Source of the DNA: Thalassobaculaceae bacterium
Lineage (GTDB): Bacteria; Pseudomonadota; Alphaproteobacteria; Thalassobaculales; Thalassobaculaceae
Assembly: GCA_029212785.1 (NCBI GenBank)
Contig: JARGOG010000027.1
Coordinates: 1 to 42,319, forward strand
DNA: 42,319 nucleotides
Direction: 5' to 3'
In this document: positions 160-6,550 of the stretch, piece after piece
Layout: each line of letters starts with the position of its first letter
Numbering within the stretch: position 1 is the first letter of the stretch
Made by a program: the position numbers and the translations under genes
Notes under the pieces: generated by a model
The model's input: only the letters and a program-made list of their open reading frames with translations
What the model was told of the DNA's origin: nothing
The model's database searches: none

Positions 160-1236
160 TCAGCTCGCTTCGGCCGGCTTGCTCAGGCTTTCGGCTGTCG
201 CGGTCAGCCGTTCCATCTCCCATTCCGAGATCCGGAACGCCCAGTTCGTCGTCTGCTCGCGATGCTTCTCGGCCAGAGCGCGGGCCTCGTCGGAGGCACC
301 CTCCGGGACGGTGATCCGCACCCGAAGCCAGTGCGCCGGCTTCTCCGCAGCGTCGCCGCCCGCCGGGTCCTTGGCGAACTCCACAGTGTACAGCACACCA
401 TCGGCGGTCGTGTACTCGGCATGGCCAAGATCCGGATCGAAGGTCAACCCGTCCGCCGTGCGCACGTCGTCGAACAGCAACTTGTCGAGGACCGTGGCGG
501 CATTGTTGACCGCGTATTGGGAATCGATCTTCCGACTGTCGGGCAGGTTGGCGATGCGGAAGTCGCGGCCGTCATCCGACACCCGCTCGAGTTCCAGGCG
601 GGATCCATCCGCCGTGACGATCGCCGCCCGCCGGATATCGGCCTGCGGAACGTCGACCACTTCCCGGAACAGCCAGAGCGGCGCCTTGCCCTTGATCTCC
701 AGCGAGCCCTCGGCGAGGTAGCTCTGGGTGTCGTCGGTGCGCCGCACATAGACCATCGGCTCGCCGCCGGACAGGCTGTCGCGGCGCTTGCCGACATGCA
801 GGTCGACCAGGGTCTCGCCATCGGCGGAGGTGACCACGAGCCGGGACGCCTTCGAGCCTTCCTGCGCCACGTCGCGCAGGTCAAGGCGGTTGAAGCGGCC
901 CGGGTCGGCGGTCTTGCGCTCGATCAGCTCGAGCTGGCCGATATCGAACAGCAGCTTGCGGACCGTGTCGGTGCGCGCGGGAAAGCCGTCGCGCTGCTGC
1001 AGGATCCAGCCGTCGCCGGTGCGCACGATCGAGACCGTGCCGTCCTCGTTGTCGTCGGCGCGGATCACCTCGATCTGCTGAACCTCGCCGGCCCGCCGAT
1101 CGAAATCCGGGTAGAGGAGCTCCGCTTCGACCTCGGTGCGCACGTCCGACAGCCGGTCGACCATGGCGACCGATGCGCCGATCGCGGTCAACAGCGTCAG
1201 GGTTCCGAGCAGTGTGACGGTGCGTTGGGTGATCAT
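160..1236 (-). CDS. DUF4340 domain-containing protein of Gld-type ABC system
   Basis: A 358-residue protein with one N-terminal membrane helix (about residues 7-26) and a long hydrophilic remainder that should lie outside the cytoplasm. The remainder has the repeated beta-rich pattern of the DUF4340 family, with short stretches such as RAGEVQQIEVIRAD and GDGWILQQRDGFPA. It is the last gene of a four-gene minus-strand operon (ATPase, permease, GldG-like, this gene). A strong GAGGAGG ribosome site overlaps the stop of the upstream gldG-like gene and sits about 6 bases before the ATG, so translation is probably coupled. DUF4340 proteins commonly follow GldG-type genes. The transported substrate is unknown. 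Family call fairly sure; function inferred from neighbours. Confidence 0.8.
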   Translation of the reverse strand: MITQRTVTLLGTLTLLTAIGASVAMVDRLSDVRTEVEAELLYPDFDRRAGEVQQIEVIRADDNEDGTVSIVRTGDGWILQQRDGFPARTDTVRKLLFDIGQLELIERKTADPGRFNRLDLRDVAQEGSKASRLVVTSADGETLVDLHVGKRRDSLSGGEPMVYVRRTDDTQSYLAEGSLEIKGKAPLWLFREVVDVPQADIRRAAIVTADGSRLELERVSDDGRDFRIANLPDSRKIDSQYAVNNAATVLDKLLFDDVRTADGLTFDPDLGHAEYTTADGVLYTVEFAKDPAGGDAAEKPAHWLRVRITVPEGASDEARALAEKHREQTTNWAFRISEWEMERLTATAESLSKPAEAS

Positions 1237-1246
1237 CGGTGCCTCC

Positions 1247-3250
1247 TCACGCGCTCGCGTCCGCGGTTTCGAAGCGCCGCCGTCGCTGCCGCGCGCGCAT
1301 CACCGACAGGCCGAGCGCGAACAGCGCGACCAGGATCGGCATCAGGGCGATGTTGACGAATTGCAGCTCGCGCTCGAGCCGCTCGACATCGGCCCTGAGG
1401 GAAGCCTGGACGCCGCGCAGCTCGCTGCGAACCCGCAGCACCTCGCCCTGCAGATTGCGCATGGTCGCCTGCTCCTCCTCGCTCAGCGCCACCGGGCCGG
1501 CGGTGACCGCGTCACGCTCCCGCAGGCCGCGCAGCTTCTTCTGGGTGTCGTCGAGGGTCTTGCGCAGCTCAAGCTCTTTCGACTGGTAGGTGCGGTCGGC
1601 TTCGCGCTTGAGCTTCTCCATGACCTCGAACGGCCGATAGGCGGTACCCTGGCCGCGCAGGTCGAGAAGGGCCGACGAACCGGTCATGGCGTCCAGCGCA
1701 TTGGCGACGAAATCGCCGTTGCCGGCGCCGGGGATCGCCACCCGCTGGCCCTGGAAGTTCTGATAGGTGACCCAGAACCGGTCGTCCAGAAGATCGGTAT
1801 CGGCGACCACCATGACGTCGATCGGCCCGACGGATTCGGTACGGACCGTATCGAAGTCGTGGCGCAACGCGGGATTGCCGCCCTCGACCGCTTCCGGCTG
1901 GCCGTTCGGGAAGGCGGTCGGCGCCGGGCCGGAAAGCCTGCCGGCGATGACGAAGCGCTCGGCGCCGGCCTGATAGGCGTTCAGCAGCGCCTGCGGGTTC
2001 GGTCGCTGGGTTGCCACCTGCTTGACGTCGAACAGGGTCGAGCCCGGGCTGGAGGTCAGCAGCGGGTCGAGGGTGAGGGGCGAGCCCTCCTTGAGCTTCA
2101 GATAGCCGGCACTGGCGACGGCGACGCTGTCGACCTGGGCGGTGACCGGAGAGTTCTTGTCCAGGTTCGGTCCGCGCAGCAGCAGCCAGGGAACATAGGT
2201 GACATAGCCCGACCCGGTGCCGTTTCCGACCCGGCGTCCGGCGAAGCGGTCGCCGACGATCTTGTCCGTCGGCATTTCCAGACCCCAGGCGTCGAACATC
2301 TCCGACAGAGTGCTGGACGCGCCGTTGACCGGACCGTTCGCGGCCTGCCAGCCGTCAGCCTCGGAATAGGGGTCGACGAAGATCACCGCCTTGCCGCCGC
2401 CGAGGATGTATTGATCGATGGCGAAGCGGGTGCGTTCCGCCAGGCGTTTGGGATGGATCACCATGAGGATCGAGATGTCGTCGGGGATCAGCTCGATCTC
2501 TTCGTCGAGCTCCTCGACATCCAGAACTTCCTCGATGCGCGGGGTGACCAGGGCCGGCGGCAGTTGTTCGGGGCGACCGCCCTGGCCCATCCGCACGTCC
2601 ATGGTGATCTTCTTGTTGCCGAGGATTCCGACCTTGCCGGTGGTGCCCTGGGACAGGGCATAGATCATCTTGGTGATGTCGTATTCGAGGAAGGCCTCGC
2701 GGTCCGGCTGGAAGAACGGCAGCGCCTCCACGTCATCGGTCGTGTTGGTGCCGACCAGACCGAAGAACACGTTTCCGTCGCCGCCTTCCAAGGCCACCGA
2801 CTGCAATCCGAAGGAGACGGCGCGGTCCTCGACCGGGGTGAACGGCTCCGGATCGTAGATCTCCAGCACGATCTTGCCGTCCGACCGGTCGGCGTATTCC
2901 TGCAGCATGTCGCGGACCCGGTCGGCATAGACGCCGTAGGTCGGGTTCTGGCTGCCGAGACGCTGGGAGTAGTAGAAGCGCAGCGTGATCGGCTCCTCGA
3001 CCTCGCGCAGGACCCGCATGGTCGCCGGCGAGAGCGAGTAGAGCTGGTCCTGGGTCAGGTCGACCCGGAAGCTGGTCAGCGAGAACGCGGCCAGGACATT
3101 GATCGATACGAACAGGGCGGCGAGCAGCGCCAGCGCGATGCCGGTGAGCTTGCCCTGGGCACCCAGGAACGGCGCGGCGCCGCCCGGGGCCTTACCCTGA
3201 TCCTCAGTCATGCCGCCATCCGGCGTGCTGTCGACGGTTGCCATGGTCAT
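1247..3250 (-). CDS. GldG-like ABC transporter auxiliary protein
   Basis: A 667-residue protein with the GldG / ABC_transp_aux layout. It has one membrane helix near residues 35-57, a large extracytoplasmic region, a charged coiled-coil-like stretch of about residues 540-630 rich in E, R, K and L, and a second membrane helix near 632-652 followed by a basic tail. The start ATG overlaps the stop of the permease gene (ATGA), which points to translational coupling. In Bacteroidetes GldG works with GldA and GldF; homologues in non-gliding bacteria are known but poorly characterised. The role here is inferred to be the substrate-handling or periplasmic component of the same transporter. Confidence 0.85.
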   Translation of the reverse strand: MTMATVDSTPDGGMTEDQGKAPGGAAPFLGAQGKLTGIALALLAALFVSINVLAAFSLTSFRVDLTQDQLYSLSPATMRVLREVEEPITLRFYYSQRLGSQNPTYGVYADRVRDMLQEYADRSDGKIVLEIYDPEPFTPVEDRAVSFGLQSVALEGGDGNVFFGLVGTNTTDDVEALPFFQPDREAFLEYDITKMIYALSQGTTGKVGILGNKKITMDVRMGQGGRPEQLPPALVTPRIEEVLDVEELDEEIELIPDDISILMVIHPKRLAERTRFAIDQYILGGGKAVIFVDPYSEADGWQAANGPVNGASSTLSEMFDAWGLEMPTDKIVGDRFAGRRVGNGTGSGYVTYVPWLLLRGPNLDKNSPVTAQVDSVAVASAGYLKLKEGSPLTLDPLLTSSPGSTLFDVKQVATQRPNPQALLNAYQAGAERFVIAGRLSGPAPTAFPNGQPEAVEGGNPALRHDFDTVRTESVGPIDVMVVADTDLLDDRFWVTYQNFQGQRVAIPGAGNGDFVANALDAMTGSSALLDLRGQGTAYRPFEVMEKLKREADRTYQSKELELRKTLDDTQKKLRGLRERDAVTAGPVALSEEEQATMRNLQGEVLRVRSELRGVQASLRADVERLERELQFVNIALMPILVALFALGLSVMRARQRRRRFETADASA

Positions 3251-3981
3251 TCCGCCTTCTTCAGGTCGACGATCAGCGCATTGGCGGCCAGCGCCAGCAC
3301 GATCACGGAAGCGAAGAAGATCGCATCGCGCAGGTCGATGACCCCACGGGCGATCGACTGGAAGTGGGTCAGGAAGCCGAAGCCGGAAACGATGTCGACC
3401 ACGGTATCGGGCAGGAAGGCGCGGACCGCATCGAGCACGACGTTGGAGCCGGCCAAGGTGAAGACGAACAGCACCGCCGTCGTCACCACGAAGGCGATGA
3501 CCTGGTTCTTCGTGGTCGCCGAGATCATCGAGCCGACCGCCAGGAACGCGCCTGCCATCAGCAGGCTGCCGATATAGGAGGCGACGATCACGCCGTTGTC
3601 CGGATTGCCGAGCTCGTTGACGGTGATCCAGAGCGGGAAGGTCAGCGCCAGCGCGATGCCGGTGAAGATCCAGGCCGCAAGATATTTGCCAACCACCGCC
3701 TCGACCATGGTGACCGGCAGGGTCAGGAACAGCTCGATCGTGCCGGTGCGCCGCTCCTCCGCCCAGAGCCGCATGGACAGCGCCGGGACCAGGAACAGGT
3801 AGAGCCAGGGATGGAAGGTGAAGAACGGCTGCAGGTCGGCCTGCCCGCGTCCCATCCAGCCACCGACGAAGAACGTCATCGTGCCGGCCAGGATCAGGAA
3901 TATGACGATGAAGATATAGGCGAGCGGCGTGGCGAAATACGCCTTCAGCTCGCGCGCCGTCACCAGCCAGATATTACGCAT
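3247..3981 (-). CDS. ABC-2 type transporter permease (GldF-like)
   Basis: A 244-residue, very hydrophobic protein with about six membrane helices. Its N-terminus (MRNIWLVTARELKAYFATPL) and the later RLWAEERRTGTIELFLTLPV stretch are typical of ABC-2 permeases of the GldF/NosY kind. The start overlaps the end of the ATPase gene by 8 bases, and the stop overlaps the GldG-like gene by 4 bases. It should form the membrane channel for the ATPase encoded just upstream. The family does not reveal the substrate. Confidence 0.88.
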   Translation of the reverse strand: MRNIWLVTARELKAYFATPLAYIFIVIFLILAGTMTFFVGGWMGRGQADLQPFFTFHPWLYLFLVPALSMRLWAEERRTGTIELFLTLPVTMVEAVVGKYLAAWIFTGIALALTFPLWITVNELGNPDNGVIVASYIGSLLMAGAFLAVGSMISATTKNQVIAFVVTTAVLFVFTLAGSNVVLDAVRAFLPDTVVDIVSGFGFLTHFQSIARGVIDLRDAIFFASVIVLALAANALIVDLKKAE

Positions 3982-4711
3982 TGGCCGTCACCTCGCGGAA
4001 CACGTCATCGAGATTGCCGCTGGCCGACCGGGTGCGCAGCTCAGGCGGCGTGCCGTCGGCGACGATCCGGCCGCGGGCGATGATCACCGCGCGGGTGCAG
4101 ACCGCGTCGACCTCTTCCAGGATGTGGGTCGAGATCACGATCGCCTTGGTCGCGGCCATTTCCTTGATCAGCTTGCGGACTTCGAACTTCTGGTTCGGGT
4201 CCAGACCGTCGGTCGGCTCGTCCAGGATCAGCACGGCGGGGTCGTGAAGCAGCGCCTGGGCCAGACCGACCCGCCGCTTGAACCCCTTGGACAGCGTCTC
4301 GATCGGTTGGTGCGCGACCTCCTCCAGCCGGGTCTTGCCCATGGCCTCGGTCACGCGTTCGCGCCGGGCGCCCCCATCGAAGCCGCGCACGGCGGCGATG
4401 AACTCGAGAAAGGCGAGAACGGTCATGTCGGGATAGGCGGGCGCCCCTTCCGGCAGATAGCCGATGGTGCTCTTCGCCGCGATCGGATCCCGCAGAACGT
4501 CATGGCCGCAGATCACCGCCGTTCCGGCATCGGGTGCCAGGAAGCCGCAGATCATCTTCATGGTCGTTGACTTGCCGGCCCCGTTTGGACCGAGGAAGCC
4601 GAGGACGTCGCCCTGGTCCAGTTCGAAACTGAGGCTGTCGACCGCCGTCTTGCGGGCATTCGCCGGTCCGAAGCTCTTTGTCAGTCCGCGCACGGACAAC
4701 GCTGTCGTCAT
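3974..4711 (-). CDS. ABC transporter ATP-binding protein (GldA-like)
   Basis: A 245-residue ATPase with all the expected motifs: Walker A GPNGAGKS at residues 41-48, signature LSKGF at 140-144, Walker B ILDEP at 162-166, and the switch histidine in STHILEE. The LSKGF signature and overall length fit the GldA/NatA/DrrA subclass that pairs with ABC-2 permeases. It is first in the operon, and its promoter should lie in the 4712-4825 gap shared with the divergent cyclase gene. It powers the transporter encoded by the three genes that follow. Confidence 0.9.
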   Translation of the reverse strand: MTTALSVRGLTKSFGPANARKTAVDSLSFELDQGDVLGFLGPNGAGKSTTMKMICGFLAPDAGTAVICGHDVLRDPIAAKSTIGYLPEGAPAYPDMTVLAFLEFIAAVRGFDGGARRERVTEAMGKTRLEEVAHQPIETLSKGFKRRVGLAQALLHDPAVLILDEPTDGLDPNQKFEVRKLIKEMAATKAIVISTHILEEVDAVCTRAVIIARGRIVADGTPPELRTRSASGNLDDVFREVTANA

Positions 4712-4825
4712 TGGGACGCTCTTATGATGTGCGTGACGTTACCGCTAGTGCGCCCGTGATGTATCGAAATGGCAGCGAAATTCCAAGACATTAGGCTAAG
4801 GTCACCGGGTCACGGGAGCAGGCTG

Positions 4826-6550
4826 ATGACGGCAATCGACGGGCAGAGGCGGGAGGGCCGCCAGGATCGGCGGGTCCCGTGGACGCCCGTGATCGCCAGG
4901 ATTCGGCTGTACACTGGTCTGTTGCTGTTCACTTACGTGAGCGCACATTTGGCCAATCATGTGGCGGGATTATGGTCGATTGGTGCCCTCGATGCCGGAC
5001 TCGAGATTATCGAAGGCCTGGTGCGCCATCGGGCGGTGACGATCCTGCTCTATGGCAGCCTGTTGCTGCACATGCTGATCGCGCTGAGGGCGATCTATTT
5101 CCGCGATTCGCTGAAGGCGATGTCGGCGCCGGAGTGGGTGCAGCTTACGCTCGGCCTGACGATTCCGCTGCTGCTGCTGCGTCACGTGCTCGCCAACCGG
5201 TTGATGCACGATCTCTACGGGCTGAACGACGACCATACCTGGGTGCTGCTGAACCTTTGGGTCTTCGATCCGACCGCGGCGGTGAACCAGGCGGCGGGCG
5301 TGCTGGTCGCCTGGGCCCATGGCTGCGTCGGGCTGCATCTCTGGCTGCGTTATGCCGCCTGGTATGATCGCGCCCGGCCCTGGCTGCTGACGGTCGCTGT
5401 CCTGCTGCCGGCCTTGTCGCTGGCCGGTTTCGTCGCGGCCGGCATGACTGTGGTCGAGCTGACGGCCACGCCGGGCTGGATGCCGTTGGCGATCAAGGCG
5501 GCAAACCTGCCCGACAATGCGACCATCAACGCCTCGCTGGTGTTGTTCGACCGGATCAAGATCGCCTATGGCAGCGTGATCGTGCTCGCTTTCGCCGCGC
5601 GCTGGGTCCGTCTGGTTCTGCACCACCGTAGTCAGGGGCTGCGGCTCGCCTATGGCGGCGACCGATCGGTGCAGGCGATCCGGGGCCAGACCCTGCTCGA
5701 GGTCAGCCGCATGCACGGGATCCCCCATGCCGCCGTCTGCGGTGGACGCGGACGCTGCTCGACCTGTCGGGTGCGGATCTCGCAGGGGCTGGACAATCTG
5801 CCGGAACCGGACGAGGCGGAGGCCAAGGTCCTGCGTCGGATTTCCGCGCCGCCGAACGTGCGCCTCGCCTGCCAGACCCGGGTGGCGGACGGGCTGGAGA
5901 TCACGCCGCTACTGCCGCCGCACACCACCGGCATGGCGGAGACCCGGGGCGGGCCGAGCTATCTGCAGGGTCGGGAGTTGGAGATCGTCGTGCTGTTCGC
6001 CGATATCCGCGGCTTCACGACGATCTCCGAAGAGCGGCTGCCCTACGACGTGGTGTTCATCCTGAACCGGTATTTTGCCGAGATGGGGGCGGCGATCGAA
6101 GGGGCCGGCGGGCGCATCGACAAGTTCATCGGCGACGGGATCATGGCCCTGTTCGGCGTCGATACCGGACCGGAGGCGGGCGCGCGTCAGGCGGTGGACG
6201 CGGCGCGGGAAATGGCGCGGCGGCTGGTCGACCTGAACGACTCCTTGTCCGGCGACCTGGAGGCGCCGCTGCGGATCGGTATCGGCCTGCATATCGGCCC
6301 GGCCATTGTCGGCGAGATGGGCTACGGCCGGGTGCGCGGCGTGACGGCCGTCGGCGACACCGTGAACACCGCCAGCCGATTGGAGGCGCTGACCAAGGAA
6401 TACGGCGCGCAGCTCATCGTCTCGGAGGCGCTGGCCGAGGCGTCGGGGGTGAGTTTCGCCGGACACCCGACCCACGAGATCGAGGTCCGCGGCCGCGATC
6501 AGGCGATGGTCGTCCGTACCGTGATGGACGCCACCGGGATCGGCGGGTAG
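4826..6550 (+). CDS. Membrane adenylate cyclase with cytochrome-b-like anchor and [2Fe-2S] domain
   Basis: A 574-residue, three-part protein. Residues about 22-265 form roughly six membrane helices with histidines at 41, 45, 82, 120, 165 and 171, placed like haem ligands in SdhC/cytochrome-b anchors. Residues about 271-365 are a ferredoxin domain with cysteines 305, 311, 314 and 349 (C-x5-C-x2-C-x34-C, adrenodoxin-like spacing). Residues about 385-570 are a class III nucleotidyl cyclase with metal ligands D393 and D437, substrate K433, adenine-selecting D511 and transition-state N514 and R518, so it looks active and ATP-specific. A start at 4769 is possible, but ATG 4826 has a better purine-rich site (GGGAGCAGG). 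It likely makes cAMP in response to redox or quinone state; Sinorhizobium CyaC is a known cyclase with a dihaem-b anchor. The sensing role is inferred. Confidence 0.9.
   Translation: MTAIDGQRREGRQDRRVPWTPVIARIRLYTGLLLFTYVSAHLANHVAGLWSIGALDAGLEIIEGLVRHRAVTILLYGSLLLHMLIALRAIYFRDSLKAMSAPEWVQLTLGLTIPLLLLRHVLANRLMHDLYGLNDDHTWVLLNLWVFDPTAAVNQAAGVLVAWAHGCVGLHLWLRYAAWYDRARPWLLTVAVLLPALSLAGFVAAGMTVVELTATPGWMPLAIKAANLPDNATINASLVLFDRIKIAYGSVIVLAFAARWVRLVLHHRSQGLRLAYGGDRSVQAIRGQTLLEVSRMHGIPHAAVCGGRGRCSTCRVRISQGLDNLPEPDEAEAKVLRRISAPPNVRLACQTRVADGLEITPLLPPHTTGMAETRGGPSYLQGRELEIVVLFADIRGFTTISEERLPYDVVFILNRYFAEMGAAIEGAGGRIDKFIGDGIMALFGVDTGPEAGARQAVDAAREMARRLVDLNDSLSGDLEAPLRIGIGLHIGPAIVGEMGYGRVRGVTAVGDTVNTASRLEALTKEYGAQLIVSEALAEASGVSFAGHPTHEIEVRGRDQAMVVRTVMDATGIGG

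Follow-up and report, generated by a model that had tools for sequence, protein, structure and literature searches.

The window analysed here, a stretch of 42,319 nucleotides from a Thalassobaculaceae bacterium (contig JARGOG010000027.1), carries on its forward strand a confirmed open reading frame with an ATG at position 4826 and a stop codon at 6550, encoding a protein of 574 residues (Table 1). Another in-frame ATG lies further upstream at 4769 and is missing from all three same-genus relatives; the ATG at 4826 is common, in the alignment, to the window and these three relatives. Pfam assigns two domains above the curated cut-off, Fer2 at residues 279-353 and Guanylate_cyc at residues 386-560, and has no match for the membrane part of the protein (residues 1-278). 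The cysteines C305, C311, C314 and C349 have the exact C-x5-C-x2-C-x34-C spacing, and D393, K433, D437, T507, N514 and R518, which we take to be catalytic residues of class III cyclases, are all in place in the alignment. An AF2 model of the full protein, based on the 45-sequence alignment A3 (from which 11 of the 56 loci examined were left out for stops, truncations or near-duplication), has a mean pLDDT of 88 and contains six long helices (21-49, 69-92, 101-131, 149-174, 178-212 and 231-267). The pLDDT falls below 50 only at residues 1-15 and 365-378, the latter being the linker between Fer2 and the cyclase. The original prediction of about six membrane helices, a ferredoxin domain with this cysteine pattern and a class III cyclase with its catalytic residues is borne out by the six predicted helices, by the spacing together with the Fer2 match, and by the Guanylate_cyc match with the six aligned residues.

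Divergent to the cyclase gene and 114 bp upstream of it, a four-gene operon (160-4711, reverse strand) encodes an ABC ATPase, an ABC-2 permease, an ABC_transp_aux/DUF7088 protein and a DUF4340 protein; the operon presumably belongs to a type that owes its name to gliding genes of Bacteroidota. Within the flanks examined, cysS follows the cyclase gene in the same genus only. We read the window protein as a CyaC-type, redox-regulated adenylate cyclase with a diheme-b anchor, with a probability of about 0.87.

Table 1. Features of the window and of three loci (L164, L165, L202) in other genomes
Feature	Position	Strand	Basis
CyaC-type adenylate cyclase gene, 574 aa	4826..6550	+	ORF; 42% identity over 545 aa to S. 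meliloti CyaC
Six-helix anchor, residues 21-267, likely haem ligands H41/H82/H120/H165	4886..5626	+	AF2 models, structural matches, His invariance
Fer2 [2Fe-2S] domain, residues 279-353, C305/C311/C314/C349	5660..5884	+	Pfam PF00111, E 4.6e-9; Cys invariance
Class III nucleotide cyclase catalytic domain, residues 386-560	5981..6505	+	Pfam PF00211, E 6.8e-19; alignment residues
Divergent intergenic region, 114 bp, between cyclase gene and ABC operon	4712..4825		Divergent pair in family relatives
Gld-type ABC ATPase, first gene of the divergent operon; neighbour, outside the enzyme	3974..4711	-	PF00005; synteny
Anchor-Fer2 without cyclase, with MscS-type gene	L164:767-4095	-	4 nt overlap
Anchor-Fer2 without cyclase, with MscS-type gene	L165:2420-5508	+	4 nt overlap
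Anchor-Fer2 without cyclase, with MscS-type gene	L202:2-2466	+	4 nt overlap

Predicted fold and likely haem sites of the membrane anchor

Residues 1-280 of the window protein hold 11 histidines, and the original prediction had seen six at haem-like places. Six is too many. Four of the histidines, H41, H82, H120 and H165, are found without exception, in all 45 rows of A3 and in each of the 141 distinct complete anchors; this set of anchors is not random, as its loci were best matches and the profile was built from fused members. These 141 were obtained from 174 frames matching the anchor profile, 146 of them distinct, after five incomplete anchors had been dropped. H45 is histidine in 119 of the 141 anchors and H171 in 31 of the 45 A3 rows, and C167 is kept in 118 of the 141. 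Judged by conservation, four histidines rather than six are likely to be the haem ligands. In S. meliloti CyaC, histidine mutants lose activity or regulation.

Among the matches listed, a Foldseek search with the full model returned cyclase chains only, and the anchor was therefore modelled alone (pLDDT 95, pTM 0.87). With this model, Foldseek gave nothing at E≤0.001 (best 0.16, a fumarate reductase), no significant hit came from a PDB profile search with the anchor (the best, at E 0.87, being a succinate dehydrogenase C subunit), and Pfam searches on the anchors of 30 relatives found no family in more than one member (best Sdh_cyt, E 0.015, in 1 of 30). When the Foldseek list was ranked by VIA-align, the top six chains were all diheme-b QFR/SQR C subunits (Z 14.3-11.4), including 2bs3_C (Z 14.3, rmsd 3.5, 199 residues aligned), 5xmj_C (13.5) and 9lay_C (11.4), and the first other fold was cytochrome b561 at Z 7.2; helical bundles can reach Z values of up to ~13 through common arrangement. 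The six chains aligned over 178-200 residues with 13-17% identity, and the match spans helices 1-5. Helix 6 has no counterpart in the QFR/SQR C fold and leads into the cytosolic domains. Because the top group is all of one kind and stands four Z units clear of the next fold, it is likely that the anchor is related to the diheme-b QFR/SQR C subunits; the link depends on how VIA-align ranks a predicted fold.

The positions of the four histidines are consistent with this relationship. Taking the N-terminus as inside, since the chain crosses the membrane an even number of times before it reaches a cytosolic cyclase, and counting 1.5 Å per residue from the helix limits, H41 and H120 lie ~30 Å and ~28 Å from the cytosolic helix ends, and H82 and H165 ~15 Å and ~14 Å. 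The model would thus place two bis-His sites at two depths, one between helices 1 and 3 and the other between helices 2 and 4, which is the order of pairing in diheme fumarate reductase. The anchor has the predicted fold of a diheme-b C subunit with four histidines in two probable transmembrane pairs, the pairing being derived from depth. The predicted fold and four conserved histidines, which in the window anchor lie on helices 1, 2, 3 and 4, are shared with the QFR/SQR C subunits of Wolinella, Desulfovibrio gigas and Chloroflexus; unlike these, the window anchor has one extra helix and is fused to Fer2 and cyclase. The genes adjacent to the window cyclase include no flavoprotein or iron-sulfur subunit genes; they are the ABC operon and cysS. 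The anchor is probably related to the QFR/SQR C family and is no member of it.

It is conceivable that the anchor is a vestigial tether and that the cyclase answers some other signal, such as bicarbonate or pH, like other class IIIb enzymes. T507 stands at the position of the class IIIa Asp, which we take to be a mark of class IIIb, and Spirulina CyaC and Cya2 are among the best PDB chains. A tether, however, would have no need of four haem-type histidines that are invariant in all 141 anchors, and we consider this explanation highly improbable.

Kinship with CyaC and spread of the architecture

The gene annotated as cyaC (SMc01818) in S. meliloti CP090106.1 encodes a protein 42% identical to the window protein over 545 residues with nine gap positions. 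It has Pfam matches to Fer2 (E 7.2e-8) and to the cyclase (E 6.1e-18), and the four histidines and four cysteines of the window protein are kept in it. Both proteins share a six-helix tetra-His anchor, a Fer2 domain with the same four cysteines and a class III cyclase whose base-specifying sites are occupied by K and T. As far as can be read from its sequence, the window protein has what marks a CyaC-type enzyme: a hexahelical tetra-His anchor, Fer2 between anchor and cyclase, and ATP-type class III residues. The expectation of a cytochrome-b-like anchor in a protein akin to Sinorhizobium CyaC agrees with this identity and with the diheme-type fold match. The genomic settings differ, with a TetR-type gene near S. 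meliloti cyaC and the Gld-type ABC operon in the window. A gene annotated as rutR, presumably a TetR-type regulator, lies ~3 kb downstream of S. meliloti cyaC, past two transposase genes, and is probably CycR.

The idea that the ferredoxin unit is an addition to CyaC fails, as S. meliloti CyaC itself has Fer2 and the cluster has been drawn in print: the legend to Fig. 6 of Klein 2023 (PMC10463352) includes a [2Fe-2S] cluster in CyaC. In the passages of that paper on CyaC (Klein 2023, PMC10463352), which cite Wissig et al. 2019, the protein carries two haem b, its activity is governed by the redox state of the quinones, and it is activated on oxidation. The combination of anchor, ferredoxin and cyclase in a single protein that responds to redox state has thus already been published. 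Our literature searches in one open library found no paper on a ferredoxin-domain class III cyclase; there, a search for CyaC with iron-sulfur and heme gave no result, and the titles on redox-sensing cyclases that were listed did not include such a fusion.

In a 50-row tree built on anchor and Fer2, the window protein grouped with its own family (97/95) and the S. meliloti protein with Microvirga (100/99), and the backbone between the window family and S. meliloti CyaC had weak support (61/73). By its sequence the window protein is a member of the CyaC family; with only 42% identity and this backbone, we do not claim that it is a strict orthologue of the S. meliloti gene.

Each of the four Fer2 cysteines is kept in 141 of 141 distinct complete anchors, and the cysteine pattern follows the anchor in all of them, although this set came partly from Fer2-containing queries and may under-sample anchors lacking Fer2. 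Five of the 141 have gaps at the cyclase sites (two without a cyclase, two frameshifted and one cut by a contig end). As for how widespread the fusion is, a point raised with the original prediction, 135 of the 141 anchors continue into a product of at least 500 residues that includes the cyclase, and this architecture occurs in several proteobacterial classes. Going by the alignments, the conservation of the histidines, cysteines and catalytic residues is not due to chance, and Fer2, because its cysteine pattern stands behind the anchor in every case, is part of the anchor module and no ornament of the window protein alone.

At E≤1e-20, 45 of 61 related genomes contain matches: 23 near full length (the window's own included), two partial and 20 to the cyclase domain only. 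The window genome itself encodes a single full-length copy; its nine other matches are partial, eight of them to the cyclase domain and the ninth to Fer2. Among the best 80 of at least 560 matches in named genomes, there are near full-length relatives from Alpha-, Beta- and Gammaproteobacteria, as well as from single MAGs assigned to Nitrospinae, Rokubacteria and Spirochaetaceae, for which a binning error is possible. Matching plasmid records number 167, of which 164 match over at least 80% of the query and 142 are from Rhizobium; the five plasmid loci that were annotated were hand-picked among the 167. With the anchor profile alone as query, which is how the class and phylum were searched, matches were found in 83 of 289 genomes sampled from the class and in 45 of 397 sampled from the phylum. 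Eight phage records match, all to the cyclase domain only and none over more than 80% of the query. Class III cyclase domains are annotated in Methylophilales and Pelagibacter phages (MZ577095-MZ577098, KC465899). In one genome (G007:C66) the start of a family cyclase (223898-224260) lies ~47 kb from the rest (271673-272965), the second part being at a contig end.

Neighbouring genes, candidate cAMP receivers and the substrate site

Of 19 relatives from the window family, 17 have the ABC ATPase gene, at 67-91% identity, in divergent orientation to the cyclase gene; in the remaining two (L018 and L026) the contig ends before the operon site. The same divergent arrangement was seen in 16 of 71 genomes of other families, spread over five families and in the 64-69% identity class (lowest 62.8), many of these 71 loci having a flank of only 1.5 kb. 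An ATPase at ≥50% identity was not found in the named and plasmid loci L038-L122, S. meliloti included (mostly 4-6 kb flanks), nor in L027, L028 and L030-L032, and a general link between the cyclase and the Gld-type ABC operon was rejected on these grounds. The arrangement is old but lineage-bound and hints at shared control, and a divergent Gld-type ABC operon beside the cyclase gene looks new. In an alignment of 18 divergent intergenic regions (the window and 17 others), no shared Crp-like palindrome was recognised by eye.

That the neighbours do not show a cAMP target holds for the adjacent genes of the window cyclase, which include no Crp and no TetR gene. Elsewhere, the window genome has 11 matches to cNMP-binding domains, and three relatives (an Azospirillum plasmid, a Methylocystis plasmid and the genome G068) carry a Crp/Fnr gene in divergent orientation beside the cyclase gene. 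We presume that the partner regulators of CyaC are Clr, which is CRP-like, and CycR, which is TetR-like. A Crp-type protein of the window genome (L127) with cNMP-binding and HTH domains is 41% identical to the Crp/Fnr protein of the Azospirillum plasmid and is the best candidate for the cAMP receiver.

In class III cyclases, the lysine that corresponds to K433 reads adenine. As the window protein has both K and T, its sequence would predict ATP as the substrate. Of the 136 rows that cover this site, 22 have another residue in place of K433 (15 Q, 3 G, 2 S, 1 N and 1 A); all 22 keep the metal Asp pair and R518, and N514 has become His in two. The lack of the adenine-specifying lysine in 22 of 136 relatives looks new. 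The three Crp-linked proteins are among the 22, with T507 replaced by Q. At L041, L042 and L167, where the equivalents of Lys433 and Thr507 are replaced, the cyclase gene is divergent to a related Crp/Fnr gene, and the substrate may differ. Loss of the lysine is not generally linked to Crp, as L174 has the same S/Q exchange and no Crp match in the stretch examined.

A proposed signal path, and anchor and Fer2 without a cyclase

How could such a protein work? The anchor would be a diheme-b cytochrome akin to the C subunits of diheme SDH/fumarate reductase, with one helix added. H41 of helix 1 and H120 of helix 3 would hold a distal haem near the outer face, and H82 of helix 2 and H165 of helix 4 a proximal haem near the cytosol. 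The redox state of the haems would be set by ubiquinone/ubiquinol, and the signal would pass from the haem to the neighbouring [2Fe-2S] domain on the surface of the membrane and on to the dimeric cyclase. The output of cAMP would then track the quinone pool and, if the protein behaves like S. meliloti CyaC, rise on oxidation. We infer redox control of the window protein, together with binding of the cofactors, relay of the signal by the cluster and reception of cAMP by a Crp-like protein. A path from quinone over haem and [2Fe-2S] to the cyclase is plausible, and the strict co-occurrence of the four histidines and four cysteines fits it.

The anchor and Fer2 also occur without the cyclase. In a class-wide search of 385 genomes, 112 of which match, two genomes (G094 and G182) have an anchor-Fer2 protein that ends in a stop after 386 and 374 residues, respectively. 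In both, the next gene overlaps this stop by 4 nt, taking its first start codon, and encodes an MscS-type channel of 643 and 735 residues, respectively, with Pfam MS_channel domains. A third genome, G418 of the same family as G094, has a pair with the same overlap (L202), in which the anchor start is cut by the contig, which leaves it outside the 141 anchors, and the channel runs beyond the fetched stretch; over 103 residues, the part of the channel that is present shares 57% identity with the G094 channel. The anchors of G094 and G182 group together at 97/96, with a warning of long branches. In the family of G182, 8 matches were found in 61 genomes, the other seven in frames of 560-590 residues, and in the order of G094 only G094 and G418 match at E≤1e-60 among 43 genomes. 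The pair of anchor-Fer2 and MscS is rare but repeated, in three genomes of two families, and without a cyclase it looks new; in one open library we found no paper on a channel coupled to ferredoxin or haem.

Several other candidates for a loss of the cyclase were rejected. In L200 (G381) and L201 (G110) the cyclase continues in another frame than anchor-Fer2, through either decay or a sequencing error, and in L137 (G240) and L074 the frames run off contig ends. Two further short matches, in G306 and G252, are located at the ends of contigs. A short ORF in G195 (L166), which has a partial match to the anchor profile and none to Pfam, was not counted. This ORF (L166:1757-2533) encodes a small membrane protein with a weak, partial anchor match, possibly a stand-alone cytochrome b. 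L073 was rejected as a channel pair, its MscS homologue (32-35% identity) lying ~1.9 kb from the cyclase gene on the other strand.

The opposite split is seen in a plasmid protein of Hymenobacter volaticus (308 residues), which has the Fer2 and cyclase Pfam domains and no strongly hydrophobic stretch. As in the window protein, Fer2 directly precedes the class III cyclase; unlike it, the Hymenobacter protein lacks a membrane anchor.

These partial forms bear on two further explanations. The haem anchor could sense the quinone pool alone and act on the cyclase through its conformation, with Fer2 being a spacer or a separate cytosolic redox input, fed by a ferredoxin- or NADH-linked donor or by oxidants. 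The Hymenobacter protein supports this view in that Fer2 can serve a cyclase without haem, but the Fer2 cysteines stand behind every one of the 141 anchors, and anchor and Fer2 remain joined where the cyclase is absent; we regard this explanation as unlikely, though it deserves to be taken seriously. The protein could also be a true electron-transfer enzyme, a quinol oxidase or reductase working through Fer2, with the cyclase secondary. The order of haem and [2Fe-2S] resembles a redox chain, and three genomes have anchor-Fer2 without a cyclase; against this, the adjacent genes contain no acceptor enzyme and 135 of the 141 anchors run into a cyclase product of at least 500 residues, which makes it the least probable of the explanations weighed here.

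Returning to a redox-regulated cyclase of the CyaC type, the window gene adds a member to a published family; the observation is sound and the kind of sensor has already been described. As Fer2 goes with the anchor in all 141 cases collected, its part in the sensing unit is worth a mutational test. We tentatively put forward, as a possibility short of even odds, that the tetra-His anchor and the [2Fe-2S] domain form one portable input module for quinone redox state, whose output is usually a cyclase and, in at least three genomes of two families, an MscS-type channel from an overlapping gene, maybe gated by or linked to the respiratory redox state. If the anchor-Fer2 protein and the channel work together, the redox state of the quinones would be directly linked to the flux of ions or osmolytes.
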